Source: an uncultured Bacteroidales bacterium (GTDB lineage Bacteria; Bacteroidota; Bacteroidia; Bacteroidales; Muribaculaceae). Taken from it: 64,000 bases of DNA. Both the position numbers and the translations under genes were made by a program. Under the pieces are notes generated by a model. That model was not told the origin of the DNA, searched no databases, and saw nothing but the letters and a program-made list of their open reading frames with translations. How positions within the stretch are numbered: position 1 is the stretch's first letter; the number at the start of each line of letters is the position of its first letter. This document shows positions 26,932 to 54,485 of the stretch, piece after piece. The stretch is taken from positions 1 through 64,000 of the forward strand of contig CACZAC010000008.1 of the NCBI GenBank assembly GCA_902779125.1, written 5' to 3'.

Positions 26932-29355
26932 TTACTTAGCATTCATCAGAGCATCAACAAGCAGTGTAGCATCCTCGATATCAATCAAACCATCGCCGTT
27001 CAAATCGGCAGCCACAAGGTCAAGCGTTTCAGTATTGCCTGACATCAGACTATCGAGAAGGGCTGTCACGTCGTTGATGTCCACAACATTATCCTTGTTC
27101 ACATCACCGGGGATGCTCTCGCCCTGCAGGAGGACAACTTCACGAGTGTTACTCCAAACGCTCCTGGTGCCATTCACATAGAATGCCATCACACGATAGA
27201 GATAAGAAGTGCCAGGAGTCAAACCAGTTACAGTATAGAACTTGTCGGGGGTAATGCCCTCAATCAAGTTGTAGTAACCACCGTCGGCATTGAAACTTCC
27301 TCTCTGGATGAAGGGCTCAAGGTCGATAATCTCACCACCATAAATCTGGATGCTCTGAATCTCGGGATAGTAACCACAAGTGAATTTAACTGCACTAGCA
27401 TTACCTGCGTCAAGCACAACCAGATAAGTATCTACCTCCTTAGCCAGAACAATCTTCTTGGAGTCGATATCGGTAGAAACAGTCAGTTCGGTATTGGTAC
27501 CCTTGGTGTAGGACTTAGCCTTGATAATAACGCTCACCTTATTGTATCCTATCAAATCACAGTTGGCCGTAATGACAGAATTGCGGGAAGCAGAGATGAA
27601 TCCACCGTCAAGATAGAACTTTGTACCTGAGAAGGTCCAGCCGTCAGGCAGATAGTTAGTAGCGTCCGAAGCGTGGTTGGTGTCCTCTTGAGGAACATTG
27701 CTCCAGTCGGCCTCGACAATGAGATGCACATCGGGTTTTTCCTTCACTTCAAGCGAGTAGCTGACAACATTCTCGGCCGGGGTGGCGTCGGTCCAGTCGG
27801 CACGGAACGAAGTTGCAGTAACCGATGACTGGTCAACAACATCCATCATAGGTCGATACAACTCATAGACCGAAACGCCGCTCAACGAGATTTCAAAATC
27901 TTCATAGCCAGGCGTGCTGACAATAATTTTGCCAGTATAATTGCCTTCCTTAGTAGGAGAGTAGGTTACATGAACGGTTTCGCTAACCTTGGCATCGGCA
28001 TCGGGAGTGATTGTTTCCTTATCAATGCCGAACACACCGTTCTCATCGACGAGCGTCAAGGTCACATCACCTTCAAGATTGCGACCAGTGAGGGTGAATC
28101 TTGAGCTGACGGTATTATTCTTGAAGCATTCCATCGACAGTTCATGGACGTCAGACCTGAGCCTCGGAGAATTGATGGGAGGCTGGATACCGATAACCAT
28201 CTGCTGGTACTGGTTGAATACAGAGCCACCGCCGTTGAATGCGTTAAGGGCATAATAGTTATTTGATTCGCCACTCCAACCAAAGTTGATGTGATACTTG
28301 TTGGAAGAAGCATCATAGCCATCGACGTTAAAAGCATGGCCACCGCCAAAGTAACCGCCAGCGATAGCACAGAACACGATGGGACGGCTCTCGGCAAGTT
28401 CTTCTTGAATCAAAGCAGCCCACTCGGCATCAGAGTACAGAGTGGTACCACCAGAGTAGGCACTGGTCTTCTTGACAACGCGCACTGACTCCTCGTCATA
28501 ACCAAAGAACTTGAAAGCATCAGCAATCAGACTCACACTGTCGGCATCAACGCCGCTACCACCTGCTGCAGAGGTACCATAAGCCATGTGTTCGGCCTGA
28601 CCGATATAACGCATCAGTGTTGCAACCGCATTAGCCTCGGCTGTAGTGTAGTTACCACTATAGGAATCCTTCATATTGTCCCAGTCAAAATAGACAGGAG
28701 GAAGTGCCGGCACATTGACATAAGTGGCACCACCCCAATAAGAAGTACTCAACTCACAACGATATGCAGGCACCTCGGGAGTCTCGAAATCGGGATATTT
28801 CCAATAGTAGAACACCATTGCAGCCGATGTTGCGGGGCAACCCGTCAAGCACTGCTGGTTGTTGATTTTGCACATATTCCAATAGGGGGCTTCCTGATCC
28901 CAGAGAGCCGTCAACAGGGGGGGCACACTGGCAATCCTGAGTGAGGGAGCCATCATAGAGGGCGTCTCGACCTGCATACCCTCATGAGCCTGCAGGTACT
29001 CGATTTGCACCTTATAAGTTTCCAGCCAAGCCTTCATGTTGCAAGGAATCGTATTGATGTCCAACGGGCGGTCACCATAACCGAGGATTTCCTCGGCACG
29101 GTCATCACCAGAGACAATCACATAACCGTTTTCGGAATTGAAAATGTAATAAACGGCACGATCAAGCATCTTGGAATTCATTTCGGCATGCGATAACTTC
29201 ATTTCTCCTGAAATGGGAGACCTCAAGCGACCATCATACTTCTGCTCTTGAATAAATTTTTGGGCTTTGGCTTTTGCTGTTCTCACATCAACAGGAGAAG
29301 CCGACAATTGAATCGCCGCAATCAATAGTGCAGCCAACAGAAAGAATCTTCTCAT
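26932..29355 (-). CDS. Secreted C10-family (streptopain-like) cysteine protease A with dockerin-like tail
   Basis: 807 residues. Signal peptide (MRRFFLLAALLIAAIQLSA); propeptide (about 20-140, with YVIVSGDDRAEEILGYG); catalytic domain with Cys173 (CLTGCPATS) and His340 (GGGHAFNVDGYD). The motif after it reads HINFGWSG, with Phe where streptopain has Trp after the active-site Asn. Then come an Ig-like domain (about 395-495) and an Fn3 domain split by a jelly-roll-like insert (starting RADWTD, ending TGLTPGTSYLYRV). The last 60 residues hold two EF-hand loops (DVNKDNVVDIND and DLNGDGLIDIED). Such proteases are made as zymogens and act outside the cell. Single-gene unit with its own promoter and terminator. 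Host or dietary targets cannot be read from the sequence. Confidence 0.9.
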   Translation of the reverse strand: MRRFFLLAALLIAAIQLSASPVDVRTAKAKAQKFIQEQKYDGRLRSPISGEMKLSHAEMNSKMLDRAVYYIFNSENGYVIVSGDDRAEEILGYGDRPLDINTIPCNMKAWLETYKVQIEYLQAHEGMQVETPSMMAPSLRIASVPPLLTALWDQEAPYWNMCKINNQQCLTGCPATSAAMVFYYWKYPDFETPEVPAYRCELSTSYWGGATYVNVPALPPVYFDWDNMKDSYSGNYTTAEANAVATLMRYIGQAEHMAYGTSAAGGSGVDADSVSLIADAFKFFGYDEESVRVVKKTSAYSGGTTLYSDAEWAALIQEELAESRPIVFCAIAGGYFGGGHAFNVDGYDASSNKYHINFGWSGESNNYYALNAFNGGGSVFNQYQQMVIGIQPPINSPRLRSDVHELSMECFKNNTVSSRFTLTGRNLEGDVTLTLVDENGVFGIDKETITPDADAKVSETVHVTYSPTKEGNYTGKIIVSTPGYEDFEISLSGVSVYELYRPMMDVVDQSSVTATSFRADWTDATPAENVVSYSLEVKEKPDVHLIVEADWSNVPQEDTNHASDATNYLPDGWTFSGTKFYLDGGFISASRNSVITANCDLIGYNKVSVIIKAKSYTKGTNTELTVSTDIDSKKIVLAKEVDTYLVVLDAGNASAVKFTCGYYPEIQSIQIYGGEIIDLEPFIQRGSFNADGGYYNLIEGITPDKFYTVTGLTPGTSYLYRVMAFYVNGTRSVWSNTREVVLLQGESIPGDVNKDNVVDINDVTALLDSLMSGNTETLDLVAADLNGDGLIDIEDATLLVDALMNAK

Positions 29356-29700: not shown

Positions 29701-32094
29701 TTAATCCTTCAGCATCAAGTCGATAAGGAGCGTAACATCGGCAATCGTCACGTCATTGTCACCATCGATATCGGCACAATCGGTGCAGATGCCGTTATTG
29801 CTACCCAACAGATAATCGATGAGCATCGTCACGTCGCCGATAGACAAGCCACCGTCATGGTCCACGTCACCCGGGATATGGGAAATGGCGTTGTCAAACA
29901 AAGTCACACTACGGCTCTTGCTCCAAGCGCTGCTGGTGCCATCGATATAATAGGCTTTCACCCTATAGTAGAACATGCCGCCAGGCATGAGGTCTGTTAC
30001 GGTATAATGCTTGTCGGTGAGTCCAGTGATGTATCGTGAATTGGCGTCACCCTCCTCTTGCACACCACGCAAAGTGGGTTCATCGAGTTCACCAGCATAT
30101 ACCTTGATGCTTTGGAACATGGGGAAACCACTCTTGCCCGAAATGACTACCTGTTCCAATTCATTGCAATTAAGTACAGCCACATACTGGGTCATCGGAG
30201 CACCGCCAGAAGCAGAGAACAGGATACTATCGATGCTGGTCTTCACTATAAACTTAGAACTGCTGTAGCTCATTGTCGACTTGGCATTCACCACGATAGT
30301 CATCTTTTCATAGCCAGCGATGTCATAGGTAGGTGTGATAAACGAACTCTTGTTGTTAATCGATACGCCGCCATTCTCACGCCAGAGACCAGTACCGACA
30401 AAAGCCCACTCATCAGGCAGGAGTTCGTAAGCAAAATTGGCGTAATTATCCGAATCCTCGGTAATATCGCTCCAGTCGGTTTCTCCGACAAGAGCTACTC
30501 CTGGCGTAGTGTTTACCTCAAGGTCATAGCTGGTAACATATTTTTCAAGAGTCTGGTCCGTCCAATCGGCACGGAACTGTGTCAAGCCAATATAGTCCTC
30601 GGAAGGAGGCAGCACGACAGGCCTGAAGGTTTCAAGAGATGCTTCACCCTTGATTGTGATGGTCACATTCTCGGCATCGGTACTGCTAAGCGTCATGGTG
30701 GCACTGTGACTGCCAGATGCCAGCGGGGCATAGTTTACCGTAACAAGTTTGCCAGAATCGGCGTCCTCGACACTAATCCTGCTCTCATCGACCGAGAAGA
30801 CTCCATTCTCGTCCTCAACGGTAATCGTGATGTCATCCACCAATTCTTTTCCTGTTACCAGGATTGTCGCGGTTGACGCCTGATCCACATAGGATTTCAT
30901 GTTCAGGTGGTAGGCGTTGACCCTGATGGTAGGTTGGACAATAGGAGGTTGAATGCCGATAATCATCTGCTGCTCAATGTTAAAGGAGTAATCCTTGTAA
31001 GAGAAAGCATTCAACGCATAATCGCCATTGCCGATGCCACTCCAACCCCAATTAACGTGATAGGTGTTGTCCTCGGCGTTATAACCGTCGACGTTAAAGG
31101 CATGACCACTCCAGCCGCGTTGATTATTGTAATCATAGGCACAGTAAACCACGGGGCGCCCCTCATAAAGCTCCTGCTGGAGTTTTGATGCCCACACCTC
31201 GTCGGTGAAATAGGTCTCAATCTCATTGCCAAAGTTATCGGCCATAGACTTGGTCAACAGCCTGGCCTCCTCATCGTAGCCAAAGAACTTGACAGCCCTC
31301 AGAATGTCAGAACCTTGAGCACCACTGCCATCGATGCCATAAGACATGTGTTCCACTTGCCCTACATAGCGCATCAGCCATGCCACGGCATCGGCTTGTG
31401 CCTCGGTGTACTCGACGCCCTCATACACGTCAAGCATGTTATCCCAATCAAAGGTGATGGACGGCAACGACGGCAATCGGTCACCGTTACTCAGGTTTAC
31501 GTAGCTCTCTATTTCAGGTGTGGGGTCCTTAGGATACTTCCAGTAGTAGAACACCATCGACAACGAGGTTGCAGGGCAACCCGTATAGCAACGCTCACCA
31601 CCATAAACAGGGCAGTAGTTCCAATAGGGTTCCGCCTGGTCCCATTCGGCCGAGAGCAACGGCTGAATGGTCTGCATCGTTTCCCCAGTCCGTATCATGG
31701 GTTTCTCAACTTCCAGCGAGGGATTGGCATGAAGAAACTCAATCTGGCGTTTATAGGTACTCAACCAGTAACGCATATTGTCCGGCATGCGAGTCATGTC
31801 CAGGGGACGGTTGCCGTGGGCAAGAATCTCTTGGGCACGGTCGTCACCAGCAACAATGACAAAGCCATAATCGGAATTGAAGATGTAATAGTCCGCCAGA
31901 CCAGGACGGTAATTACTCACCTCGGTATAGAGCAATTTGACGTTACTAGCGGAGGCGCCATTGATGCGCGGCACGGAGTTCACACTTTGAAGATAACGCT
32001 GAGCGTTAGCTTGAGCTGCCATAAGGTCAACGGAAGCAGCCCAGCCTTGAGCCACAGTCAACATCAAGGCTACTAAAAAGAAGATTTTTTTCAT
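29701..32094 (-). CDS. Secreted C10-family cysteine protease B with dockerin-like tail
   Basis: 797 residues, same architecture as copy A. Signal peptide MKKIFFLVALMLTVAQGWAA, propeptide (FVIVAGDDRAQEILAHG), Cys173 in CYTGCPATS, His331 in WSGHAFNVDGYN, and the streptopain-like HVNWGWSG with the Trp kept. An Ig-like domain follows (about 390-490), then the split Fn3 (RADWTDQ ... TDLMPGGMFYYRVKA), then EF-hand loops DVDHDGGLSIGD and DIDGDNDVTIAD. Extracellular protease activity is expected. It has its own promoter and terminator, so it can be expressed separately from its neighbours. Confidence 0.9.
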   Translation of the reverse strand: MKKIFFLVALMLTVAQGWAASVDLMAAQANAQRYLQSVNSVPRINGASASNVKLLYTEVSNYRPGLADYYIFNSDYGFVIVAGDDRAQEILAHGNRPLDMTRMPDNMRYWLSTYKRQIEFLHANPSLEVEKPMIRTGETMQTIQPLLSAEWDQAEPYWNYCPVYGGERCYTGCPATSLSMVFYYWKYPKDPTPEIESYVNLSNGDRLPSLPSITFDWDNMLDVYEGVEYTEAQADAVAWLMRYVGQVEHMSYGIDGSGAQGSDILRAVKFFGYDEEARLLTKSMADNFGNEIETYFTDEVWASKLQQELYEGRPVVYCAYDYNNQRGWSGHAFNVDGYNAEDNTYHVNWGWSGIGNGDYALNAFSYKDYSFNIEQQMIIGIQPPIVQPTIRVNAYHLNMKSYVDQASTATILVTGKELVDDITITVEDENGVFSVDESRISVEDADSGKLVTVNYAPLASGSHSATMTLSSTDAENVTITIKGEASLETFRPVVLPPSEDYIGLTQFRADWTDQTLEKYVTSYDLEVNTTPGVALVGETDWSDITEDSDNYANFAYELLPDEWAFVGTGLWRENGGVSINNKSSFITPTYDIAGYEKMTIVVNAKSTMSYSSSKFIVKTSIDSILFSASGGAPMTQYVAVLNCNELEQVVISGKSGFPMFQSIKVYAGELDEPTLRGVQEEGDANSRYITGLTDKHYTVTDLMPGGMFYYRVKAYYIDGTSSAWSKSRSVTLFDNAISHIPGDVDHDGGLSIGDVTMLIDYLLGSNNGICTDCADIDGDNDVTIADVTLLIDLMLKD

Positions 32095-32310: not shown

Positions 32311-34704
32311 TTAATCATTTGATGACAAAATCAAGTCGATAAGCGCTGCAACATCGGCAATACCGATTGCATTATCACCAGTGACATCAGCATTAGCTTC
32401 ATTGATGTCACCACCGCCCAACAGGTAGTCAATCAAGGTGGTCACGTCAACAATGCCAACTACGCCATCATCGTTCACGTCACCCATAACAGCAGAGCCG
32501 CCAACGAGGGTTACCTCCTCGGTGTTGCTCCAAGCGCTCTCGGTGCCGTCGGTGTACAGGGCCTTCACCTTGTAGGTATAGGTGCTGTTCTCGTTCAGAC
32601 CAGTCACGGTGTAGAACTTGTCGGTGATACCTGTAATTACTTTATGTGCAGCATCGCCCGTCTCAACAACTCCACGAGTCTCGGGAGCGCTCACCTCGCC
32701 AGCATAAACGGTCAGGTCAAGCAGACCAGCATAACTGGAATAGGCCGAGAAGGTCACATAATCGGTCTGTTCACAATCAAGAACAATCACATACTGGGTA
32801 AAGTTTCTAGACAAGATGATAGTCTCAATTCCCTTGCTGGTAGCTACAGATGCCGATGCGTCACCATATAATCCCTTGGCGGTAAGCACTACGGTCACCT
32901 TGTCACAACCAGTAAATTCAGGAGTGGTAATGCTGGCGTTCTGGAGAGAGATGAAGTGATTCTCGGCCCACAAATTATCACCAGTGAACGACCAGCCTTC
33001 GGGAATCAGTCCTGAAGTTTCCCAAGTTGAAGCCTGATTCTGGAACACCTCAGTCGTATTGCTCCAGTCACCACTGGCCAGATAATTGTAAACGGGCTTC
33101 TCATTCACCTCCAGGGTATAGCTTACAACATTCTGGGCAACGGTCTGGTCGGTCCAGTCGGCACGGAACGAGGTAGCGGTAATCTTGCTCTCATTGGCAG
33201 GTTGCATCACGGGGTCATAAACCACGAGAGGCGCAGCCGTGGCAGTACCGTTCAGGGTAACAGTTACATCGGGAGCGTCCTGGCTGCTCAGGATGATGGT
33301 GGCAGTGTGGGTGCCAACAGCCTCGGGAGCATAGGTCACGGTGACGGTCTCGTTCATGACAGTGGCATGAGCGATTGTGTTCACGTCAATGCTGAAAGCG
33401 CCATCGGCATCACTCAAGGCCAAGGTAATGTCACCCGTCAAGTGTGAACCAGTAACATTGAACGTTGCTGTAGTTGTCTCACCAGCGTAGCACTCAACGT
33501 TAAGCACATCGGTTGAAGTGTAAATACGGGGATCGGTCGTGAGGGTGGGATCCTGCACATCGGCAAACAGGATGGGATAGAAGTCATAAACCGTCATGCC
33601 ATTGTCAAGGGTGAAGCCGTTGAGCGCATAGTAAGTGTTCTTCTCGGCGCTCATACCGAAATTCACGTGATACATATCGTTGTCGGCATCATAGCCATCC
33701 ACATTGAAGGCATGGCCACCGATGCCGGTAGAGTCGCTCGACATGTCAAAGGCACAATAGATCAGGGGACGGCCAGCAATCAGCTCAGACTGAATCAATT
33801 CACCCCACTCTTCGTCGGTATAATTAACCTCATCGGTCTGGAAATCAATCTTCTCGATGACGTGGGCATCACGATAACCAAAGATGCGGAGAGCCTGCAT
33901 AATCTCTTCACGCTCTGCACCACTGCGATCCAGACCATAGTCCATCGTCTCGGCCTGACCCACATAGCGCATGAACCAGGAGATGGCATCAATATCCGTA
34001 TCAGGAATCTGGTCGATACCGCTTGAGCTACTGGGGTAAGAATCACGCATGTGCTCCCAGTCGAAAGTGTATTCGGGCAGGGGGTCAATCACATAACCTG
34101 AAGTCGGGCAGGTGTAACCGTCCAGGGCAGGCGATGTCGTGGGATATTCCCAGTATCTCATCACCTGAGCCAGGGCTACAGCCGAGCAACCCACCTTGCA
34201 ATAGGGATCCTGACCAGTACCCTTCTTGGGGGTCTTCATGTTGTAAGGCTTGCCCTGGTTCCAAGCGGTAGTCAACAGCGGACCCACCGATATGCCACCA
34301 CGGTAAATACCCTTCTGCACCTTCAATCCAGGATGTGCCTGGAGGTACTCCATCTGCTTCTTGTACATATTCAAGAAAAGCTGCATGCCCTCGGGCATGT
34401 CATTGAGGCTCTCCAACTGGCCGTCGCCATAGGCGAGGATTTCACGGGCACGGTCGTCACCAGCCACGATCACATAACCACAATCGGTGTTGACGATGTA
34501 GTAAGCAGCCTGAGAGGCATTGCTTGAGGTCTTCACCTCCTGGGTCCACTTAACAGTGGGCGCCGAGGTCATGAAGCGTCCCTTGGCAGTTTGGCTCATC
34601 AGGAAGCGCTGGGCACTCTGCTGAGCAGTTGCCAGGTCAACATTGGCTGCGGTAAGTTGCAACGATGCAACCACCAGTGCAGCAAGTAACAAAATCTTCT
34701 TCAT
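32311..34704 (-). CDS. Secreted C10-family cysteine protease C with dockerin-like tail
   Basis: 797 residues. Signal peptide MKKILLLAALVVASLQLTA, propeptide (YVIVAGDDRAREILAYG), Cys173 in CKVGCSAVALAQ, the classic streptopain-type context, and His331 in GGHAFNVDGYD. The next motif is HVNFGMSA, so both Trp positions of the usual NWGW are replaced (Phe, Met). Activity or specificity may therefore differ. An Ig-like domain, the split Fn3 and EF-hand loops DVNDDGVVGIVD and DVTGDNAIGIAD follow; the last loop has Thr in place of the usual Asn at position 3. It begins only 51 bp after copy D with no terminator between, so the two are probably co-transcribed. Confidence 0.9.
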   Translation of the reverse strand: MKKILLLAALVVASLQLTAANVDLATAQQSAQRFLMSQTAKGRFMTSAPTVKWTQEVKTSSNASQAAYYIVNTDCGYVIVAGDDRAREILAYGDGQLESLNDMPEGMQLFLNMYKKQMEYLQAHPGLKVQKGIYRGGISVGPLLTTAWNQGKPYNMKTPKKGTGQDPYCKVGCSAVALAQVMRYWEYPTTSPALDGYTCPTSGYVIDPLPEYTFDWEHMRDSYPSSSSGIDQIPDTDIDAISWFMRYVGQAETMDYGLDRSGAEREEIMQALRIFGYRDAHVIEKIDFQTDEVNYTDEEWGELIQSELIAGRPLIYCAFDMSSDSTGIGGHAFNVDGYDADNDMYHVNFGMSAEKNTYYALNGFTLDNGMTVYDFYPILFADVQDPTLTTDPRIYTSTDVLNVECYAGETTTATFNVTGSHLTGDITLALSDADGAFSIDVNTIAHATVMNETVTVTYAPEAVGTHTATIILSSQDAPDVTVTLNGTATAAPLVVYDPVMQPANESKITATSFRADWTDQTVAQNVVSYTLEVNEKPVYNYLASGDWSNTTEVFQNQASTWETSGLIPEGWSFTGDNLWAENHFISLQNASITTPEFTGCDKVTVVLTAKGLYGDASASVATSKGIETIILSRNFTQYVIVLDCEQTDYVTFSAYSSYAGLLDLTVYAGEVSAPETRGVVETGDAAHKVITGITDKFYTVTGLNENSTYTYKVKALYTDGTESAWSNTEEVTLVGGSAVMGDVNDDGVVGIVDVTTLIDYLLGGGDINEANADVTGDNAIGIADVAALIDLILSSND

Positions 34705-34755: not shown

Positions 34756-36876
34756 TCAATCTGCGCTCAGCAGGATGTCAATCAGTGCCGCCACATCGGC
34801 AATGCTGACCACCGTATCACCATTGATATCGGCATTCGCCTGGTTGATGTCACCGCCACCCACCAGGTAATCAATCAGGGCGGCCACGTCGGCGATACGC
34901 ACCTCACCATCGTTATCCACGTCACCGATTACGGCGGCGCTGCCTGTGAGCGTTACGGTCTCGACGTTGCTCCAAGCGCTCTGGGTACCGTTCACATAGT
35001 GGGCCTTAACACGATAGGTATAAGTGCCGCCCTCGGTCAGACCCGTCACGTTGTAGAACTTGTTGGTGATGTCCGTGAAAACGAGTTCGTCAACATCATC
35101 AGTCTTAGCGGGCAGGGTGAGCATCATCTTGGATGCATCGCTCGTAGCGCTGTAGATGTCCACCTGGGTAACAACCACACGCTTGGTATTGGAGCCATCG
35201 CCACCAGTGATGGTCACCTGCTGGCTGTCATCGGCCTCACATTTCAGGACAAAGGTATATATCTGCTCGGCACTGACGACCACACTTTGCATGCTGTTAC
35301 CACACGAGACAGTAACAGGTATATCGGAGTCGGCATCCAAGTAGGGTCTCATGGTGAGCTTGACAGTCATTTTGCCGCCACTCTGCGTCATGTCAAGTGC
35401 AGGCGTGGTGATAGTACCGACATTGCCGCCGCCACCCAGACGGACGCCACCGCGAGCCTCGTAGGCATTGCTGCACGTCCAGCCCGCATTTGAGGCGACG
35501 CTACTCATCTTATTGATTGGTGTTGACGAATTAGAGCTAGCATAAGGGAAGCTCTCGCTGAATACCAGCTCATAGACGCCAGGCTCACTGCCGTCGTCGG
35601 TGTTCACCTCAAGGGTGTAGCTGGCGACGTTCTCGGCAGGTGTCTCGTCGGTCCAGTCGGCACGGAACGAAGTCAAGGTGATATAGTTCTCGTTGGCAGG
35701 TTGCATCACGGGGTCGTAAGCTTCGATGGGAGCAGGCGGCTCAATGCCCAAGACCATCAGCTCACCCAGGCTGTAGCTATAACCCTGATTGTTGAATGCA
35801 CGCAGGGCGAAATAGCCGTTACCTGTTCCACTCCAACCCCAGTTGATAGAGTACAAGCCACTGGTTGCATCATAGCCATCGACATTGAAGGCGTGGCCAT
35901 AAAATGAGTTATAGGCACTGCTATAGCTGTAAGCGCAATAAACTACGGGGCGACCGGCAGCCAGCTCTTCCTGGAGCATCACACTCCAGTCAGCGTCGTT
36001 GATGAGCATGTTCTCACCATTGGTATCAAAGTTAAGCGTAGCCTTATACTCTACACGGGCATCCACATAGCCAAACAGGTGGCAAGCCCTGAGGATATCG
36101 TCCTCCCAGGCTTCGCTGCCCTCATTGGTGTAATCCATTTCCTCGGCCTGGCCAATGTAGCGCATGAGCCATGCCACGGCATTTCGCTGGACATCGTTAG
36201 CGTTGAAAGTGTACACTGGCAACATGTTGGCCCAGTCAAAGGTGATTGAAGGCAGAGGGGGGAGCACAAAATGGCGGGTGCGCGTCGTGTAACCCGGAAC
36301 CTCGGGCGTGGGCTGGACGGGATACTGCCACTTGTAGAAGATTTGGGCCAGCGAAGTGGTGGCGCAACCGGTCAAACCGCGACGGTCACCGTCCATGGGG
36401 CACTGGTTATAGTAGGGATAGCCCTGGTCCCACTTGGCTTCAAGCATCGGCTCGACGCTTTCGCCACGGTTGCCGTTCAATGAGGGTTTCTCGACCACCA
36501 TTCCAGGGTGAGCCTGGAGATACTCCATCTGTTTCCTGTAACAACCCAGCCAGAACTTCATGTTCTCGGGCAGGTTGTTCATGTCTTTCAATGTTTCGCC
36601 ATAGGCCAAAATATCCTTGGCGCGGTCATCACCGGCAACAACGACAAAGCCCTTGTCGGTATTGACCACATAATAAGCCGTCATGGCGGCATTATCGGAG
36701 TTCTTCTCCTCATGAACCCACTTGACAACAGGCCTTGAGGACATCAGTCGGCCATTCACGGCCTTACGGGACAGGAAATCACTGGCTTTGGACTGGGCAG
36801 TCTTAATATCGACATTGCCTGCCAATGCCTGCACTGCCGCTAACAAAAGAGCGGCAAGGAATAAGGTTTTCTTCAT
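34756..36876 (-). CDS. Secreted C10-family cysteine protease D (short form) with dockerin-like tail
   Basis: About 706 residues from the ATG at 36876; the longer frame to 36888 needs a TTG start. Signal peptide MKKTLFLAALLLAAVQALAG, propeptide (FVVVAGDDRAKDILAYG), Cys171 in LTGCATTSLAQ, His328 in YGHAFNVDGYD, and SINWGWSG with both Trp kept. Unlike copies A-C it lacks the roughly 90-residue Ig-like domain: the catalytic domain passes straight into the Fn3 start (LTSFRADWTDE). The jelly-roll insert within Fn3 is present but divergent. EF-hand loops are DVDNDGEVRIAD and DINGDTVVSIAD. First gene of the D-C unit. Confidence 0.9.
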   Translation of the reverse strand: MKKTLFLAALLLAAVQALAGNVDIKTAQSKASDFLSRKAVNGRLMSSRPVVKWVHEEKNSDNAAMTAYYVVNTDKGFVVVAGDDRAKDILAYGETLKDMNNLPENMKFWLGCYRKQMEYLQAHPGMVVEKPSLNGNRGESVEPMLEAKWDQGYPYYNQCPMDGDRRGLTGCATTSLAQIFYKWQYPVQPTPEVPGYTTRTRHFVLPPLPSITFDWANMLPVYTFNANDVQRNAVAWLMRYIGQAEEMDYTNEGSEAWEDDILRACHLFGYVDARVEYKATLNFDTNGENMLINDADWSVMLQEELAAGRPVVYCAYSYSSAYNSFYGHAFNVDGYDATSGLYSINWGWSGTGNGYFALRAFNNQGYSYSLGELMVLGIEPPAPIEAYDPVMQPANENYITLTSFRADWTDETPAENVASYTLEVNTDDGSEPGVYELVFSESFPYASSNSSTPINKMSSVASNAGWTCSNAYEARGGVRLGGGGNVGTITTPALDMTQSGGKMTVKLTMRPYLDADSDIPVTVSCGNSMQSVVVSAEQIYTFVLKCEADDSQQVTITGGDGSNTKRVVVTQVDIYSATSDASKMMLTLPAKTDDVDELVFTDITNKFYNVTGLTEGGTYTYRVKAHYVNGTQSAWSNVETVTLTGSAAVIGDVDNDGEVRIADVAALIDYLVGGGDINQANADINGDTVVSIADVAALIDILLSAD

Positions 36877-37200
36877 AATTGCACGCAAGTTATAGTGTTA
36901 AGGAAATATCAGTTACAAGGATTTATATCAATGATATTATGTGACAAAAGTAATACAATTATTCGTAAAACCAAAAAAAACGCCACCATTTCACACTGCG
37001 GGCTTACAAACAGCCACGAATAAAGGCCATGATTCAAATTTTTGCACACCAATTCTTGCAATAACCTGTAGAGAGATGTAAAGCCTTGACCCAATTCAAG
37101 AAGTGAAGTAACAGCCAGGGCATAAACAAAAAAATTCCATCATAATCATGATGAAATCTTTTGTACTAATCGGGTTGCTCTACCCATACTGACCAGGATT
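36877..37200. other. Non-coding spacer upstream of C10 protease D
   Basis: 324 bases with no gene. Apart from the D promoter at 36945-36974 no further structure is recognised. Confidence 0.5.
36945..36974 (-). promoter_or_regulatory. Promoter of the C10 protease D-C unit
   Basis: On the minus strand TTG (36972-36974), exactly 19 nt, TACTTTTG (36945-36952). Leader of about 60 nt. Confidence 0.75.
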
Positions 37201-41755: not shown

Positions 41756-41765
41756 CGGCTAAAAA

Positions 41766-45870: not shown

Positions 45871-47258
45871 CCCCTCAATATTATCTCGATGACAGCATTC
45901 ACGTCGGCAATACTTACCTCACCGTCACCATTCACATCACCAGCCAGGTTGTTGTTACCCGTGATAATCAGGTTAATCACGTAATTGACATCGGCAATGC
46001 TCACCTCGCCGTCGCCGTTTACATCACCCTTCAGACCAGGCTGAGGCTCAGTGCCGGCATCGACATTCCTACCAATCTTATACACAGCCATACCGTTGAA
46101 AGCCTTGAAAGTAAGCAAGGTAACCTCTTCGAAGCCATCCTCGTCAACGCCATACTCAACTGCGAAGCAGTGTACACGCAGACCGCTGTCATTGAACTTG
46201 CCCAAACTGTCGGCGGGGATTTTCCAGTACTTGGTCATGCCGGCCAGCGACTGTCCCTCACCCAACTCGCAGATGTTGGCTTGGCATCCGTGGCCATTGC
46301 CGTTCATGTCGGCATTGACATAGACCAGGAAGTGCTTGTCTTCCAATTCAAACTCCATACATCCGTTGGGGGTTGACTGGGGCCACAACGCAGGGTCAGT
46401 ATCCTCAAACGTGTCAATCACCGAGCCCGAATAGTCGTAAATCACAGGTGCGGTGTCAAAGCAATCGATATAGAACATCTCACCGCTATAGCGTGAATCC
46501 TCGTCTGGACCTTCAATCATCTTGATAACAGGAGCCAGCGAGAAGCCCGTCTTGGTTTCGGGATAGAAATTGATGACATCCATATAGGGGTCACCGTCAA
46601 AGCCGCCTTCCCAATCGCCACCCTGGTCAGCATGCATGCGATACAACGTGGGGAAACCGGGGTCGGCGGTAGAGCCCGACACGGTCATGATGTTGCACTC
46701 GGCCTGCTCCAGCGTGATGTCACCGATAACATCGAGGTAGTCAGTGCGCTGGGGAGCATCGCCCTTGTCCAACTCGACAACCAAGGTAAGTTCTCCAGTC
46801 TCGGTATCTACCAAATAAACAGGCACATACTGCTGCACGTTGCTCGTCATGGGAGCCACCCAGATGTGATGGAAACTATCCTTGCCGATGCTTGCCACAC
46901 CCAGGAAACGGCCATAAGGAGCACCATCGAGGTACAGGGGCAGGTCCTCGAGCTGACTGCCGTCAACCGCCGAGAAACGGTGAATCACCGACTGGGAGAT
47001 GGTATCGTTGCCCACGATGGTGGCAAGTTCCTCACTGCGTGACACATAGATAATGCCCTGGTCCATTGTTGCCGTGCGGGCGCGCTGGTTGCAGATGGCA
47101 TTGCTGGTATAAGCAGTGCCACTGTGCACACGGTCAAAAATCCACTTATTCACAATTTTGATGCCGTTCACCTCGGGATAAGTCTGCCCATCGGTCACTG
47201 CCATAGCAGACAATGCTGCAAATAAAGTAACGGCAAAAAGAAGTAATATTTTTTTCAT
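45867..47258 (-). CDS. Secreted protein of unknown function with dockerin-like tail (paralogue 1)
   Basis: 463 residues. Signal peptide MKKILLLFAVTLFAALSAMA. The body has repeated strand-rich motifs with aromatic and Gly/Asp turns, suggesting a beta-propeller or lectin-like fold. Conserved blocks shared with the neighbour at 47429 include VNGIKIVNKWIFDRVHSG, HADQGGDWEGGFDGDPY and NGMAVYKIGRNV. I do not recognise a named family. The tail carries DVNGDGEVSIAD twice, an EF-hand pair. It overlaps the phosphodiester glycosidase gene by 4 bases. It may bind the substrate that the glycosidase cleaves; that is inference. Confidence 0.75.
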   Translation of the reverse strand: MKKILLLFAVTLFAALSAMAVTDGQTYPEVNGIKIVNKWIFDRVHSGTAYTSNAICNQRARTATMDQGIIYVSRSEELATIVGNDTISQSVIHRFSAVDGSQLEDLPLYLDGAPYGRFLGVASIGKDSFHHIWVAPMTSNVQQYVPVYLVDTETGELTLVVELDKGDAPQRTDYLDVIGDITLEQAECNIMTVSGSTADPGFPTLYRMHADQGGDWEGGFDGDPYMDVINFYPETKTGFSLAPVIKMIEGPDEDSRYSGEMFYIDCFDTAPVIYDYSGSVIDTFEDTDPALWPQSTPNGCMEFELEDKHFLVYVNADMNGNGHGCQANICELGEGQSLAGMTKYWKIPADSLGKFNDSGLRVHCFAVEYGVDEDGFEEVTLLTFKAFNGMAVYKIGRNVDAGTEPQPGLKGDVNGDGEVSIADVNYVINLIITGNNNLAGDVNGDGEVSIADVNAVIEIILRG

Positions 47259-47345: not shown

Positions 47346-47390
47346 CCGCGGATTGTCGCGGACGTGGTTAACACTCCGTACAATCCGCGG
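47346..47390. repeat. Inverted repeat between the two paralogues
   Basis: Arms CCGCGGATTGT (47346-47356) and ACAATCCGCGG (47380-47390) are perfect, with 23 bases between. There is no T-run, so it is not an obvious terminator. It may be a dispersed repeat or an mRNA processing site. Confidence 0.6.
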
Positions 47391-47428
47391 AATATAACTC
47401 TGCTAGTGAGAATTCACCTAGCGGTGGC

Positions 47429-48823
47429 TTATTGATTCAAAATCATCGTGATGATGGCATTCACATCGGCGATACCAATCTCACCGTCACCATTCACGTC
47501 ACCAGCCAGGTTGTTGTCGCCCTTGATAATCATGTTAATCACATAGTTGACATCGGCAATACCGACCTCGCCGTCACCGTTCACGTCACCAGGCACAACA
47601 GGCTGCGGTCCGGGTTCGTCACTATAGACGTTAGGACCAATCTTGTAAACAGCCATACCGTTATAGTTCTTGAAGAAGAACAGGGTTACCTCCTCATTGC
47701 CCTCATCGTCGGTACCATAAACCACGTTCATGCTCTGGACACGCGTACCGCCGTCACTCATGGCACCCAACGCATCGGGAACCATCCAGTAACGCTGCAT
47801 GCCGGCAAGCGTCATGCCCTCGCCCAACTCGCAGATGTAAACCTGGCAAGCCTTGTTAATCATGGTAGCCTCGTCAACACCGGTGTACTGGGCAGCGACA
47901 AAGACGATAAAGTTGCGGCCGTCGAGCGTGAACTCGCACACACCGTTGGCGCCAACATCCATAGGCCAGAACGCAGGGTCAACCTCCTCGAAGTTGTCCA
48001 CCATCGTTCCCGTCAGGTCATAGAGAATAGGCGAGGTAGTAAAGCCGTCGATATAGAAGAGTTCACCACTGAAGTCATCTTCGGAATTCAGCACCATCTT
48101 GGCAACGGGAGCGTAGCCCCACTGGGTCACCGTCTCGGGGTAGAACTCAAGGATAGCGAGATAGGGATCACCATCAAAGCCTCCCTCAAAATCGCCACCC
48201 TGGTCGGCATGCCAGCGGTAGATGTATTCCGAGCTGGCGCCAACACTCATGATGTTGCACTCAGCCTCCTCACGGGTGATATCACCCATAACATCCACAT
48301 AGTCGAGACGCTGCACGGCGTCAGCCTTATCGAGGTCGGCAATCCATGTGAGCTCACCGGTATCACCGTCCAGCATATAGATTGTGTGCTGTGTTGACAC
48401 GATACTGCTGAAGGGGGAGATGTACAGATGGCCAAAATTGTCCACACCCACAGTATTGGCACTCAGGGTAGCGCCACCGTAAATTGCACCGTCGAGAGTG
48501 AGGGGCAATTCCTTCACCAACTCACCGTTAGCCGCATTCACTTTATAAACAACGCTCTGGGTGAGGGTATCGGTACCTTGTATGATGGTATTGGCATTGG
48601 AACGGGCAATGTAGATATAGCCGTCGCTCAACACCGCAGTGCGTGCATTGGTGTTGCAGTAAGGCTGGTTGCCCCACTCATTGGGCGTGTGGACACGGTC
48701 TTGAATCCACACGTTCTTGATGCCGATTCCATTCACTCGGTCATACTTCACGCCATCGGTCACAGCCCATAAACTGGCAACTGTCGATACCGCCAACAAA
48801 GCTGAAAGTAGAAATTTTTTCAT
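47429..48823 (-). CDS. Secreted protein of unknown function with dockerin-like tail (paralogue 2)
   Basis: 464 residues, closely similar to the product at 45867 along its whole length (YDRVNGIGIKNVWIQDRVHT, HADQGGDFEGGFDGDPY, NGMAVYKIGPNV). Signal peptide MKKFLLSALLAVSTVASLWA. The tail holds DVNGDGEVGIAD and DVNGDGEIGIAD. The two genes clearly arose by tandem duplication. First gene of the three-gene unit. Fold likely beta-propeller-like; function not assigned. Confidence 0.75.
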   Translation of the reverse strand: MKKFLLSALLAVSTVASLWAVTDGVKYDRVNGIGIKNVWIQDRVHTPNEWGNQPYCNTNARTAVLSDGYIYIARSNANTIIQGTDTLTQSVVYKVNAANGELVKELPLTLDGAIYGGATLSANTVGVDNFGHLYISPFSSIVSTQHTIYMLDGDTGELTWIADLDKADAVQRLDYVDVMGDITREEAECNIMSVGASSEYIYRWHADQGGDFEGGFDGDPYLAILEFYPETVTQWGYAPVAKMVLNSEDDFSGELFYIDGFTTSPILYDLTGTMVDNFEEVDPAFWPMDVGANGVCEFTLDGRNFIVFVAAQYTGVDEATMINKACQVYICELGEGMTLAGMQRYWMVPDALGAMSDGGTRVQSMNVVYGTDDEGNEEVTLFFFKNYNGMAVYKIGPNVYSDEPGPQPVVPGDVNGDGEVGIADVNYVINMIIKGDNNLAGDVNGDGEIGIADVNAIITMILNQ

Positions 48824-49025
48824 AAATAATTGGTTTTTAAGTTGTTATGCTTATTGAATTTGATTTACACATATTAATTTAGCAAAGTAACAAAAAATAT
48901 CGTTATAGACAAAATACATTGAAAAAATTATTTTCTAAAAAATACTAAATTTATGTTTACAATTCAAAAATTATACTGATGATTAAAATACAATGATTAT
49001 CTTTGTCACAATTTATGGTTAAAAT

Positions 49026-50225
49026 ATGGGACTAGACCGAAATATTATGCCAAAATTCAATCATTTACAGTTCGCTATTGATGCTGTTAAGCAGACGCGA
49101 ACACCTTTCTATTTCTATGATATAGACCTGCTGCACGAGACGCTGGAAACCATCAACCGCTTGACCGCCAACCAGCGTTGGAAAGTGCATTATGCCATCA
49201 AAGCCAATGGAAACCCACGTATTGTCAAGGAAATCGCTAATTATGGTCTAGGGGCAGATTTGGTAAGTGGAGGCGAAATTGAAGCAGCCATCAAGGCGGG
49301 ATTTGCCCCTGAGAACATAAATTATTCGGGAGTGGGAAAAACTGACTGGGAAATCAGGAGCGGACTGGAACACAATATCGGGTTCTTTAATGTCGAGTCT
49401 GTACCCGAGCTGGAGGTCATCAACCAGATTGCCGGCGAGATGGGCAAATCGGCACGCATCGCCATCAGGGTAAATCCCGACATCGACGCCCACACCCACC
49501 GCTATATCACCACCGGCACCGCCGACAACAAGTTCGGCATCAATCTCGAAATTCTGGATCAAGTGATTAAACACGCGCTCGACCTGCCACACATACTCCT
49601 GGGAGGACTGCACTTCCATCTGGGGTCACAGATTACTGATATGAGCCCCTATTCCATGCTGTGCGACACCGTCAACCGCTTGATTGACAAGTACGAAAAG
49701 CAGGATATCCAATTCAAAGTCATCAATGTGGGTGGAGGCTTAGGCATTGACTACAGCCATCCCGACGAGCATCCCCTACCCGACCTGGAAGCCTATTTCA
49801 ACACCTTCAAGCAGGGCATACGGCTCAGAGAGTACCAAGAATTGCATTTCGAGTTGGGTCGTGCTATCGTCGGCAATTGCGGCACTCTGATTTCCAGCGT
49901 AGTATATGTCAAGGAGAGCCGCAACAAGAGATTTGCCATCCTGGATGCCGGAATGAACGACCTCATCAGACCAGCCCTATATGGAGCCCATCATCAGGTA
50001 CAAAACATCACCTCACAAGAACAGGAAACCGAGAAATATGAAGTTGTGGGACCAGTGTGCGAATCCAGCGACGTATTCGCCCACGACCAACTCATGCCGT
50101 TGACCCGTCGCGGCGATATTATCGCCATCCGTACGGCTGGCGCCTACGGCGAGTCGATGGCCTCGACCTATAACATGCGTCCGCTGCTGCCCAGCGTCTT
50201 CTATTCCAGCCAGCAGTCATCATAA
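49026..50225 (+). CDS. lysA: Diaminopimelate decarboxylase
   Basis: Last step of lysine synthesis, meso-DAP to lysine. About 399 residues, PLP-dependent fold III. Seen: cofactor lysine context VHYAIKANGNPRIVKE, glycine loop VNVGGGLGIDYSHPDE (positions vary slightly), substrate segment VGPVCESSDVFAHD and AYGESMASTYNMRPL near the end. The ATG at 49047 (MPKFNHLQF) is an equally likely start. A -7 box TATCTTTG lies at 48998-49005, so the leader would be very short. Faces away from the paralogue gene upstream and converges with the CotH gene. Confidence 0.93.
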   Translation: MGLDRNIMPKFNHLQFAIDAVKQTRTPFYFYDIDLLHETLETINRLTANQRWKVHYAIKANGNPRIVKEIANYGLGADLVSGGEIEAAIKAGFAPENINYSGVGKTDWEIRSGLEHNIGFFNVESVPELEVINQIAGEMGKSARIAIRVNPDIDAHTHRYITTGTADNKFGINLEILDQVIKHALDLPHILLGGLHFHLGSQITDMSPYSMLCDTVNRLIDKYEKQDIQFKVINVGGGLGIDYSHPDEHPLPDLEAYFNTFKQGIRLREYQELHFELGRAIVGNCGTLISSVVYVKESRNKRFAILDAGMNDLIRPALYGAHHQVQNITSQEQETEKYEVVGPVCESSDVFAHDQLMPLTRRGDIIAIRTAGAYGESMASTYNMRPLLPSVFYSSQQSS

Positions 50226-50238
50226 CCACTTGGCGGCT

Positions 50239-51846
50239 TCAACCACCTAGAATAACCTTGATGATGGCATTGATGTCGCCCACGGTGATTTCGCCATCGG
50301 CATTGACATCGGCACGTTCAAGGATGTCGTGGCCCACGTCATTACCCAAAATTACTCGAATCACGGTGTTGATGTCACCCACAGTTACCTCACCGTCGTT
50401 ATTCACATCTCCATGTAGAGGAGGAAGAGGTTCTGTCGGGTCATATCCCAACTGTTCATCCATCCATTTCAGACGGGCGACCAACCACTGCTTCAGGTAG
50501 TTCAACTCATCATCAAAATTCACGGAGACATAGTAGTTGGGCCAGACATACTTGCCCCAACGCGGCCATGCACGGGTGTTGCGCGCCATCGCGCCATTGC
50601 TCGTGAGCACATAGGCCATCGAGTCCACTACGGCCATCAGCCATTCCTCCTGAAGGTTACTATGGCGGTATTGTGCCCAGCGACGCTTGAGCTGAGCGGT
50701 GTAATTAGGGTCATTGTTGAGCTTGTACCACCAAAATGGAATCAGGTAGGCATCTTTCTGATACATGATATCATTGGCCCGATAGGACCATAAATCCGTT
50801 CTCCACGCATCATAATAATCGGCATTACCGTAGGCCAAGTTCATGTCCCACACCACCATCTTGAACAACGGATTCTGGCTGTCACGACGTTTGAAGAACT
50901 TTCCGCTCAAGCGATAAGCGTCCACATTGTGGGCAAATTCCTGGGCAATCTGGTAGTCAATAAATGACATCACATCAATATGCTTGCGGTAGCCCTCAAC
51001 CAGGTCGGTATAGTTCTCTGAAGCCAGTGCGTCCTCCATCTGGTCGATACGGTTCTTTATATACTCCAGTTGGGCCGGGGTCATTTCCTCAAAGTCGGGC
51101 GACTTGTATTGGAAATAAATGTACCGGTTGTTGATGGGCTGGCCATTGTTCAAGACGGGATGATACTTTGACCGATAATAAGGCTCGTCATTGCGCTCGA
51201 CCGACAGCAGATAGCCACCAGTGAGCTCGTCGCCCTCTTCACCAGGATCGTCGAGATTCAGGCGATATTTGCCTTTGGAAACGACTTCGGTCAGAATAAA
51301 CACGCCATAGTAGGTGCCATCCAGGAAAAGTTCGCAAAAACGCCCCTGCGGTGTGTAGTCCATCCATGGCTGTGAAATCTCAAACGCCAGCAGGTCGCGC
51401 ATCATGCTCTTGTCGGAATAGGGGGCCAGCAATGCCCAGTTATTATCCTTTCCCATGCCCAAGAGGCTCACTTTCTTCTTTTCACCTCCCTGCTCGAGCG
51501 GCTTGTTGATAGGACGGAATGAATAAGGTTTCTTAGGACTGTTGTCAAAGGATGAGCCGCCACGGTAACGCAGGGCGATATATCCGTCATATTCAACGTG
51601 CTGCCCCGGATGCGCGACAGTATCGGCATAGTTGAGTTGGCCATCACCGTTATGGATAATCTTCATAGTAGCGGTAATGCGGTCAGTACGGGATATAGTA
51701 TTGCCCCCGACGTTAATCCACACAATAGGCAGATTAGTCGAGCCGATAGTCACATAGACATAATCGGGCGGATAGTTGGGCAAACGTGAGTAGGCAGCAC
51801 TCACCGTCAGCAATACCGCCGCCAACAACAACATCAATCGTTTCAT
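50239..51846 (-). CDS. Secreted CotH-kinase-domain protein with dockerin-like tail
   Basis: About 535 residues from ATG 51846; the longer frame to 51885 adds a poor N-terminus. Signal peptide MKRLMLLLAAVLLTVSAAYS. The body is the CotH kinase fold: YRGGSSFDNSPKKPYSFR, NNWALLAPYSDKSMMRDLLA, GTYYGVFILTEVVSKGKYRL, and VVWDMNLAYGNADYYDA with the metal-site Asp. CotH proteins phosphorylate secreted substrates; bacterial members are also found in cell-surface loci. The C-terminal EF-hand pair is DVNNDGEVTVGD and DVNADGEITVGD. It is the last gene of the predicted PUL. Confidence 0.88.
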   Translation of the reverse strand: MKRLMLLLAAVLLTVSAAYSRLPNYPPDYVYVTIGSTNLPIVWINVGGNTISRTDRITATMKIIHNGDGQLNYADTVAHPGQHVEYDGYIALRYRGGSSFDNSPKKPYSFRPINKPLEQGGEKKKVSLLGMGKDNNWALLAPYSDKSMMRDLLAFEISQPWMDYTPQGRFCELFLDGTYYGVFILTEVVSKGKYRLNLDDPGEEGDELTGGYLLSVERNDEPYYRSKYHPVLNNGQPINNRYIYFQYKSPDFEEMTPAQLEYIKNRIDQMEDALASENYTDLVEGYRKHIDVMSFIDYQIAQEFAHNVDAYRLSGKFFKRRDSQNPLFKMVVWDMNLAYGNADYYDAWRTDLWSYRANDIMYQKDAYLIPFWWYKLNNDPNYTAQLKRRWAQYRHSNLQEEWLMAVVDSMAYVLTSNGAMARNTRAWPRWGKYVWPNYYVSVNFDDELNYLKQWLVARLKWMDEQLGYDPTEPLPPLHGDVNNDGEVTVGDINTVIRVILGNDVGHDILERADVNADGEITVGDINAIIKVILGG

Positions 51847-51911
51847 TTGCTGCAAAAATAAGAAAAAGTTTTCAATAATGAGCAAATAGTCCTATGAAAG
51901 TCACGCAAGCC

Positions 51912-54485
51912 TTATTTGTCCAAGATAAGCTGGATGACCCGGTTGATGTCACCCACCGTCACCTCGCCGTCACCATTCACGTCAGCACGCTTGAGTATGG
52001 AGTCAGGATACTGAAGGCCCAGAATGACCCCGATAATCACATTCACATCACCGACACTCACCTCAAGGTCACCGTTCACGTCACCCAAAACCGCCTCGTG
52101 ATAGACAAACGTGCGCACATCGCAATACTCGGTGTACTGTGCAGTCGTGCCTGTGACAAGGGTGCGATAGGCATAACGGGCACGGGCGTAATAGGTCTTA
52201 CCGTCTGTCAACTTGCCGGCACCCTTGATTGTGCCCAGTTGAGGGGTCTCAAAGGTGCCTTCGAGTGTGCCGTTATAGGTCGAACGAGAGGGGAATGTCT
52301 CAGAACTGCTGACTTGCACCCTCAACGACCCTGCACCCTCGACAGGGACAAATCGCAGGACATCAGTAGAATAGAGTACCGTATCGCCCTCAGTGGGGAA
52401 GACAAATACTGGCACTGACGGGATAACTTCAATTGTGATGAACGACGAGACAGGTGTTACCACTGTTGCCGCACCACGGGTCGCGGTCACACGCACATAG
52501 TAGGTTGTAGCACCCGACAGACGATATCGGGGGACAGTCCACTGCGGCTCTTCGACAAGGACTGTATCGGGCGAGGTCATCCTCTCGCTGGATGACAATT
52601 CCAGCAGATAAGAAGTACCTGGAGCACCAGCCGTCCAAGTGATGACGGGAGTCAGCGAAACATCTGTCGCTACAGGAGCCGGCGAGGTAATGCGCATCTC
52701 ACCCAGCGTGAAATTGCGCGGCTCACTCGCGTTGTCCCACTGGTTAAGACCACGTGCTACCACACGCCACCAGTAGGTGCCGCTGGTCAGGCAAGGAATC
52801 TTTGTCAAGGGACAACTCAACGAGTCCACTTCGACCTGTGCCACGAGCGACTGCATCTGCTGGTCGGCATAAACCTGCACCATGTAAGTTGCTGCATTGC
52901 CATCCCACTGCAGGAACGAGAGTTCAGGCACCTCGGCACCGTCCTCGGGATAAAGCAGTACGGGCTGTGCAGCCTGAGTGGGTTCTATACCGGGCATCAC
53001 AGGAGCATACTCATTCTCCCAGCGGTCAAGAATCGACACGGCATAACGGTAGCCCTCACGTTTATTGGCAGGCAAGGTATAGGAGGCCCAATAGCTCACG
53101 CCATCGATATACTTGGCCTGGGCATGGAAATCATTGTCCCCTAATCCATCGGGGATGGCATAAACGACATAACGCACATTGGGGATGCTGTCCCACGATA
53201 AGATGCCGTCGCTATAGGCAAGATTGGTTACCGTGGTATAGGTTTGGGCAGGATTTAGCCACGCCGGGGCGGGATTCAGCGCTATCGTCGAGTAAAGGCT
53301 GTCCTTGAGCCAGGTGCGCAACTGACGCACCTTACCGTCAATCACCTCCTTCTTGTTGCGCCACGTGCCGTAGCGGAAGTAAACCATACCCGGATTGCCA
53401 CCAGCAGCCATCGCTTCGCGCATGACACGTCCCTGCTTGACAAACTCTGCCAGCGTCCAGCCTTCTTCATCGGGAATCCACTGGCTGATGAAGATGTGAC
53501 GGTTAAAACGGGCGGCTATCTTGCCCCACCATGTGGTGACGCCAGTAAAAGTGCCTGTAGTCTTCCAATAGACCTGTGGTGCCAGGAAATCGATTGTGCC
53601 GCGTGTCACCCATGCCATGGGGTCGCTGTAAATCTGGTTGTATTGCCAATCGCTTCCAGGGCTGGGCTCCACACCATACTGGTCGGCCACCGCCTGGGAA
53701 CTGCAGGCTACGCCAGCGGGCCCGATGCCAAAGCGCACCCACGGCTTGGTCGATTTGACCATGTCGTTCACGTCCTTGACCATCTGGTTGACGTTCTCAC
53801 GGCGCCAATCACCCTGGGACATCATGCCGCCGCCTGCCTTATAGGCGCTATACAGGTCGGCATCGAGCGTGAACGACGGATTGTCCTGATTATAGAAATA
53901 ATCGTCAAACACCAGCCCGTCAACGTCATACTTCACGATGATGTCCTTGCACACGTCCACCACGCGTTGACGCACCTCGGGGATGCTGGGATTGAGCACC
54001 GTTTCATAGCTGGTGGTCAACAACCACTCGGGATGAGTGTGGATGTAGTCACGATCGCTTTGTCCCCACAGGTTCGAGCCGTGGCCATAGCGGTAAGGAT
54101 TCACCCAGGCATAGACCTCAATACCACGCTTGTGTGCCTCCTCGACAAGAAATCCAAACGGGTCAAAGGCTGGAGCCACGCCACGCGTGCCCGACACATA
54201 GCTGGACCAGGGTTCGTAGGCCGAGTTATACATTGCGTCACACATCGCCCTGACGTGATAATACACTACATTGATGTGGTTCACGCGCATGGTGTCAAGC
54301 ATTTTGCGGCAGGCATTCTGCACGATGGGCGTGTTGCTAGCCGTGATGGCGCCGCTGGGCCAATCGCTCAGGTAGGCTGTCATCCAGATGCCGCGCTGCT
54401 CCCGTTTGGGAGGCATATCGGCTGCCATGACAAAACTGGCGACAAATGTCACCAGTAATGCCATTATGATTATATTTCTTTTCAT
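51912..54485 (-). CDS. Secreted GHL10 (family 10-like) glycoside hydrolase with Fn3-like and dockerin-like modules
   Basis: 857 residues. Signal peptide MKRNIIIMALLVTFVASFVM. The N-terminal 380 residues are a TIM-barrel of the GHL10/PF02638 family: RGIWMTAYLSDWPSG, INVVYYHVRAMCDAMYNSAY, VDGLVFDDYFY (Asp194/Asp195) and the FLAPQVYW segment. E. coli DigH, of the same family, cleaves denuded peptidoglycan glycan chains. Several beta-sandwich modules (Fn3-like) fill residues 400-790. The EF-hand pair is DVNGDLEVSVGD and DVNGDGEVTVGD. It follows the surface lipoprotein gene, with a dispersed palindrome (54499-54526) between them. Confidence 0.9.
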   Translation of the reverse strand: MKRNIIIMALLVTFVASFVMAADMPPKREQRGIWMTAYLSDWPSGAITASNTPIVQNACRKMLDTMRVNHINVVYYHVRAMCDAMYNSAYEPWSSYVSGTRGVAPAFDPFGFLVEEAHKRGIEVYAWVNPYRYGHGSNLWGQSDRDYIHTHPEWLLTTSYETVLNPSIPEVRQRVVDVCKDIIVKYDVDGLVFDDYFYNQDNPSFTLDADLYSAYKAGGGMMSQGDWRRENVNQMVKDVNDMVKSTKPWVRFGIGPAGVACSSQAVADQYGVEPSPGSDWQYNQIYSDPMAWVTRGTIDFLAPQVYWKTTGTFTGVTTWWGKIAARFNRHIFISQWIPDEEGWTLAEFVKQGRVMREAMAAGGNPGMVYFRYGTWRNKKEVIDGKVRQLRTWLKDSLYSTIALNPAPAWLNPAQTYTTVTNLAYSDGILSWDSIPNVRYVVYAIPDGLGDNDFHAQAKYIDGVSYWASYTLPANKREGYRYAVSILDRWENEYAPVMPGIEPTQAAQPVLLYPEDGAEVPELSFLQWDGNAATYMVQVYADQQMQSLVAQVEVDSLSCPLTKIPCLTSGTYWWRVVARGLNQWDNASEPRNFTLGEMRITSPAPVATDVSLTPVITWTAGAPGTSYLLELSSSERMTSPDTVLVEEPQWTVPRYRLSGATTYYVRVTATRGAATVVTPVSSFITIEVIPSVPVFVFPTEGDTVLYSTDVLRFVPVEGAGSLRVQVSSSETFPSRSTYNGTLEGTFETPQLGTIKGAGKLTDGKTYYARARYAYRTLVTGTTAQYTEYCDVRTFVYHEAVLGDVNGDLEVSVGDVNVIIGVILGLQYPDSILKRADVNGDGEVTVGDINRVIQLILDK

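Follow-up and report, generated by a model that had tools for sequence, protein, structure and literature searches.

The stretch of DNA analysed here (the window, 64,000 nucleotides) covers positions 1-64000 of contig C8 in a genome of 97 contigs, 3.35 Mb and 90.7% completeness, whose bearer probably belongs to Sodaliphilus, a ruminant-gut genus of the Muribaculaceae; the Muribaculaceae member C941 we likewise take to be Sodaliphilus. The genus name is based in part on published dockerin counts and on G319, a closed genome with 55.2% GC over a 120-kb sample, against 54.4% given for S. pleomorphus (PMC7738495). Two minus-strand clusters, 26932-36888 and 43507-54485, hold nine proteins, whose number, strand and types, as given in the first-pass annotation, were borne out by the reading frames and by Pfam (T and N denote two dockerin classes defined below):

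26932..29355, minus strand: C10 protease with I69 propeptide (Pfam); T-class dockerin at 26947-27111
29701..32094, minus strand: C10 protease with I69 propeptide (Pfam); T-class dockerin at 29719-29874
32311..34704, minus strand: C10 protease with I69 propeptide (Pfam); T-class dockerin at 32329-32484
34756..36888, minus strand: C10 protease with I69 propeptide (Pfam); T-class dockerin at 34768-34926
43507..45870, minus strand: phosphodiester glycosidase (NAGPA; Pfam); N-class dockerin at 43513-43665
45867..47258, minus strand: secreted protein with no Pfam family besides the dockerin; N-class dockerin at 45879-46031
47429..48823, minus strand: second protein without a family except for the tail, resembling the preceding protein at both ends by eye; N-class dockerin at 47438-47593
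50239..51885, minus strand: CotH-kinase protein (Pfam); N-class dockerin at 50248-50415
51912..54485, minus strand: GHL10 hydrolase (Pfam); N-class dockerin at 51921-52088

All nine proteins end in a Pfam match to Dockerin_1 (PF00404) that lies above the curated cut-off and far beyond chance, scoring 28.4-38.8 bits with Pfam on the proteins and 30.4-44.9 bits in the genome-wide search, and only 1-5 residues separate the Pfam match from the stop; the tails, recognised at first sight as dockerin-like, are Pfam type I dockerins. The notion of a single shared tail holds in so far as all nine are type I dockerins, but these fall into two classes, T on the four proteases and N on the five other proteins. 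A T9SS-type end had been described as missing from the nine, and indeed none of them matches TIGR04183, the model of the T9SS tail; the sole match on the window's contig lies in a 109-residue frame on the minus strand (22225-22392). Directly upstream of the N-class cluster, SusC-like and SusD-like genes, two lipoprotein-like genes and a hexosaminidase-like gene (54537-63945, minus strand) probably constitute a polysaccharide utilisation locus, as judged by eye.

The first-pass annotation had proposed listing all tail-bearing proteins of the genome, which yielded at least 148 dockerins (PF00404, E <= 0.001), a lower bound because the best 150 of 235 candidates were scored; one further dockerin, on a C10 protease (L269), was met by accident. 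Most of the 148 (126) are located within 20 residues of the stop, 10 are near the N-terminus and 12 mid-chain, all read in frame, and 142 of the 148 proteins have a signal-peptide-like N-terminus according to a simple hydropathy rule. Export as lipoproteins was rejected, as the lipobox-like patterns present in 5 of the 148 all look like ordinary signal peptides by eye. The Pfam families on the 148 proteins include LRR_5 (30), C10 protease (20, with 27 C10 matches in the genome), CotH (11), M6 (6), alpha-amylase and FGE-like (5 each), S8 (4), GHL10 and endonuclease I (3 each), GH53, NAGPA and Omp28 (2 each) as well as GH123 and BNR (1 each); split cargo lists left out the four window proteases and three scaffolds. 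Cellulase families are absent from the Pfam listing of the 148 proteins, seven one-member families being outside this listing. In two proteins (C9:75294 and C35:2894) the dockerin is followed by a TIGR04183 match, i.e. dockerin and T9SS tail are not mutually exclusive.

In the 144 dockerins that were aligned, i.e. leaving out those on contigs C47, C65, C69 and C81, the aspartates of the first loop (positions 2 and 13) are invariably present, and those of the second loop are found in 139/144 (position 35) and 141/144 (position 46). Class T (DVTxLIDxLL) has 98 members and class N (DVNxVIxxIL) 35, and 11 dockerins, among them three half matches and three scaffold dockerins, are intermediate. As the scoring rule was devised after viewing the columns, this split is descriptive, and the stronger point is the agreement between the repeats: at the key position the repeat pairs are T,T in 64, N,N in 34, N,T in one and T,N in none of the 144 dockerins, the remainder showing a different residue or a gap. 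That the repeats match within two sets of residues suggests, at the level of sequence, two partners and thus two docking specificities.

Cohesins had been reported as not visible, which is true for the window, both with Pfam Cohesin (PF00963) and with a lineage profile termed A1, but not for the genome, which has 11 of them elsewhere. In the whole-genome cohesin search that had also been proposed, Pfam scores three weak matches at 24.7-27.4 bits, and each has a dockerin next to it within its own frame. A1, a profile of 16 rows made from these three matches, their neighbours and relatives, finds 11 domains in 8 frames, several of which are rows of A1 by construction and three of which are recovered by Pfam; a genome devoid of cohesins is thereby ruled out. 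Two more partial matches (L070), obtained with a locally iterated profile only, are left out of the counts. Nine of the 16 rows match Pfam Cohesin at E <= 0.1. Among PDB sequences, the eleven top places for A1 are taken by cohesin, scaffoldin or NagJ chains; 5n5p is matched with E 7e-6 in two short stretches and 6kgc with E 7e-4 over the whole domain, and the 21 matches up to E 1 also include an IgA Fc receptor and an endonuclease. For a Coh-Doc homologue from L151, AlphaFold gave a model with a pLDDT of 91.4 and a pTM of 0.67 (0.67 and 0.62 for the two single-chain Coh plus Doc models), and in a Foldseek search with the L151 model 49 of the 50 listed places are taken by cohesin, cohesin-dockerin or cellulosomal-component entries, the match with the best E value (3.5e-8) having a TM score of 0.74 by target length and the lone exception being a copper protein at rank 46. 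The A1 domain has, by prediction, a cohesin fold.

The proteins of this genome that contain A1 cohesins (Coh) are of the following kinds (Doc, dockerin):

Coh-Doc, 224 residues
Coh-Doc-FGE
Large N-terminal part-Coh-Doc-Coh-tail, three proteins
LRR-Doc-Coh-tail, two neighbours, one with a T dockerin and one with an N dockerin
Short cohesin frame after a dockerin gene, on contig C5

Ten of the 11 cohesins share a protein with a dockerin and the eleventh, the short frame on C5, comes just after a dockerin gene, so some of them may pair in cis. No protein with more than two cohesins was found in this genome at its 90.7% completeness on 97 contigs, including none like the 919-residue protein of two genomes of the same genus (G206 and G281), which has six cohesins followed by a dockerin. 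At L171 and L172, in two species of the genus, such 919-residue six-cohesin scaffolds are much alike and have a Doc-Coh gene directly upstream. Scanning named genomes for those that have two Coh-Doc proteins provided 20 related loci, 19 of them from genomes whose title names a ruminant or carries an RUG number. At 11 of these loci a Coh-Doc-Coh gene is followed immediately downstream by a gene for Coh-Doc(-) or Coh-Coh, two more have a Doc-Coh gene before Coh-Coh or Coh-Coh-Coh, and the other seven differ or are cut. In three proteins (L197 on C14, L152 and L159) Coh-Doc runs on into a domain that by eye resembles formylglycine-generating enzyme.

Of the 20 scaffold tails, TIGR04183 picks out only five at E <= 0.01 (best 9e-5), the others being T9SS-like by eye only, and T9SS tails on all scaffolds were therefore rejected. 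In this genome one scaffold tail reaches a TIGR04183 match, at 16.4 bits and thus below the cut-off of 23, and a profile made from nine scaffold tails (A9) meets the genome's TIGR04183 matches at C26, C34, C9, C27 and C15. A large scaffoldin was also looked for among seven stretches picked by TIGR04183 (L124-L130), and no A1 cohesin was found there.

Dockerins and cohesins occur together throughout the sampled part of the genus: all 16 members have at least 30 dockerins (69-299 candidates) and 3-18 A1 cohesins. In a family survey of 198 genomes (these 16 and 182 others), 181 of the 182 others have 0-9 dockerins; 67 of the 182 have a dockerin, 45 an A1 cohesin and 37 both, an association (Fisher 6e-13) that is inflated by two-domain proteins and kinship. 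The remaining genome (G149, another genus, 85% complete) has at least 30 dockerins (43 candidates) and no A1 cohesin. Across the order (149 genomes), dockerin matches occur in 56, Pfam cohesins in 45 and SprA of the T9SS in 140; as SprA is also full length in our genome, loss of the T9SS as reason for the dockerins was rejected. Other dockerin-rich Bacteroidales have cohesins as well: at L133 (G003) five stand in tandem, and G094 shows several Pfam cohesin matches in frames of 8081 and 6522 residues.

The first-pass annotation had the shared tail gather unlike enzymes into a surface or extracellular complex. A shared docking tail is well supported, as this genome and all 16 sampled members of the genus encode the divergent cohesins, whereas complex formation and surface location are what we infer from it. 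The numbers might also be read differently: 11 cohesins face at least 148 dockerins, ten of the 11 are in the same protein as a dockerin, and G149 is rich in dockerins without having an A1 cohesin, all of which would fit dockerins that bind another partner, e.g. an unrecognised receptor, exopolysaccharide or the cohesins of other cells, with the A1 cohesins serving neighbouring dockerins only. We regard this as rather unlikely, since A1 cohesins accompany the dockerins in every sampled genome of the genus, two genus genomes encode six-cohesin proteins, and the dockerins of both Coh-Doc adaptors of our genome are of the T class, as on the enzymes.

Dockerin and T9SS-like tail are exchanged in C10 proteases. 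A search for relatives of one window protease covered 71 genomes from other genera of the family and found one in 62 of them, and 30 sister-genus loci (the best-scoring, one per genome) were read. Among the 26 readable ends 25 are T9SS-like by eye and one is a dockerin; TIGR04183 recognises 14 and Pfam 9 of the 26, the other tails being called by eye. In the genus itself, where 41 genomes were searched and the 30 best loci read (one per genome), there are 23 dockerins, two T9SS-like tails and five unreadable ends. Fisher tests of genus versus sisters result in 4e-11 (23:2 versus 1:25) or, with the recognised tails only (1:14), in 7e-8, ignoring kinship and using best-scoring rather than random loci. 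On a tree of 83 C10 catalytic domains (quick search, SH-aLRT support only), in which C35:2894 was scored as dockerin despite the TIGR04183 match behind it, five changes of tail state are needed, or six with two more proteins of our genome added; the tail state is strongly clustered, i.e. changes are rare but repeated. Within a clade of the genus (99% support) L254 and L263 carry a dockerin and L257 and L264 a T9SS-like tail, and these four proteins can be aligned through the pre-tail domain and diverge at the tail. A T9SS-like tail is also found on a C10 protease of our genome (L128), and a further C10 protease (L270, G000:C13:21200-24600) has an FGE-like end and neither of the two tails. T9SS sorting domains (TIGR04183, PF18962) resemble the dockerin in being a C-terminal add-on of C10 proteases (in sister genera), but they are unrelated to it in sequence and missing from the nine window proteins.

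Taken together, we consider it fairly probable that the tails are type I dockerins of a cellulosome-like surface assembly, which is non-cellulolytic by its listed cargo and in which docking takes the place of a T9SS tail on the enzyme itself. The dockerin would be carried by secreted proteases, BspA-type LRR proteins, CotH proteins, amylases and further proteins, which would leave by Sec and then reach the surface, presumably across the outer membrane; there a few scaffolds with divergent cohesins, some of which end T9SS-like, would hold them; most of the scaffold tails may be true T9SS tails. The enzymes would dock on the scaffold cohesins by class (T or N), with presumably calcium-dependent binding and class-specific pairing, and the two window clusters would represent one class each. 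In C10 proteases the dockerin occupies the place at which most relatives from sister genera have a T9SS-like tail, so docking to a scaffold may stand in for the enzyme's own tail. One may go further and speculate that the dockerin is a ticket for export and display, i.e. that the enzymes bind scaffolds with sorting tails already in the periplasm and ride with them through the T9SS. Such carriage would explain why the dockerin replaces the T9SS tail and, if true, would mean that one T9SS substrate exports many passengers, yet we think it unlikely.

Two further explanations were weighed. EF-hand pairs can serve as stability modules, and the tail might be a partnerless, calcium-stabilised cap for folding or protection from proteases; however, both repeats keep the same class, the dockerins expanded in a genus that also has cohesins, and the tail is exchanged with a sorting-tail-like domain, all of which suggest a partner and render a cap highly improbable. 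Equally hard to credit is that the T9SS itself recognises the dockerin in place of its usual sorting signal, whether cohesins take part or not: the dockerin does occupy the position of the T9SS tail in C10 proteases, SprA is full length and no other outer-membrane route is evident, the five lipobox-like patterns among 148 being unconvincing by eye, but ten dockerins are N-terminal, the signals known for the T9SS have a beta-sandwich fold, and dockerins function in organisms without a T9SS.

The surface assembly that we favour shares with the cellulosomes of Clostridia and Ruminococcus the duplicated calcium-loop dockerins on secreted enzymes, partners of the cohesin fold, scaffolds with dockerins of their own and several dockerin classes. 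Unlike in cellulosomes, the listed cargo consists of proteases, LRR proteins, CotH proteins and amylases and includes no cellulase family, the cohesins are mostly below Pfam's reach, the host is Gram-negative, and the scaffolds have LRR_5/Big2 parts and in some cases T9SS-like tails. For Ca. Stygibacter (Cloacimonadota) a cellulosome-like complex with a surface-attached scaffoldin bearing a T9SS-type end has been proposed, which has, as in our case, dockerin-tailed proteases and glycosidases together with a cohesin scaffoldin with a C-terminal surface-attachment domain (PMC8542988). The scaffoldin described there is, however, a single protein of 3,755 residues with CBM2/CBM3, whereas our genome has at least 148 dockerins, small paired-gene scaffolds, two dockerin classes and a dockerin in the place of the T9SS-like tail. 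A further relative, from another phylum, is the planctosome of the Nemodlikiaceae, a cellulosome-like structure said to serve polypeptide degradation (cited in PMC8542988).

The abundance of dockerins in this lineage has been published before. Sodaliphilus MAGs with 63-107 dockerins were read as degrading cellulose (PMC10872696, in the main text of which the word cohesin is absent), and dockerins without cohesin in Muribaculaceae C941 were read as non-amylosomal starch degradation, Prevotella spp. with dockerin and cohesin being named as possible cellulosome producers (PMC9863278). Both organisms probably belong to the same genus as ours or to a close one. To call the system a poorly described non-cellulosomal assembly, as the first-pass annotation tentatively did, is therefore fair, its dockerins being in print under other readings; our searches of the open-licence literature, a scope that mostly leaves out subscription papers, turned up no earlier account of either these cohesins or the exchange between dockerin and T9SS tail.

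Our findings offer an answer to the printed puzzle of a Muribaculaceae genus full of dockerins 'without cohesin': the cohesins exist, and most of them are too divergent for the Pfam model. The likely role of the dockerins thereby shifts from cellulose to surface proteolysis and adhesion. Moreover, the C10 proteases, as one and the same enzyme on which sorting tail and docking domain take each other's place, amount to an experiment of nature. This exchange raises the testable question of how proteins that lack a T9SS tail get through the outer membrane when their host has a T9SS.
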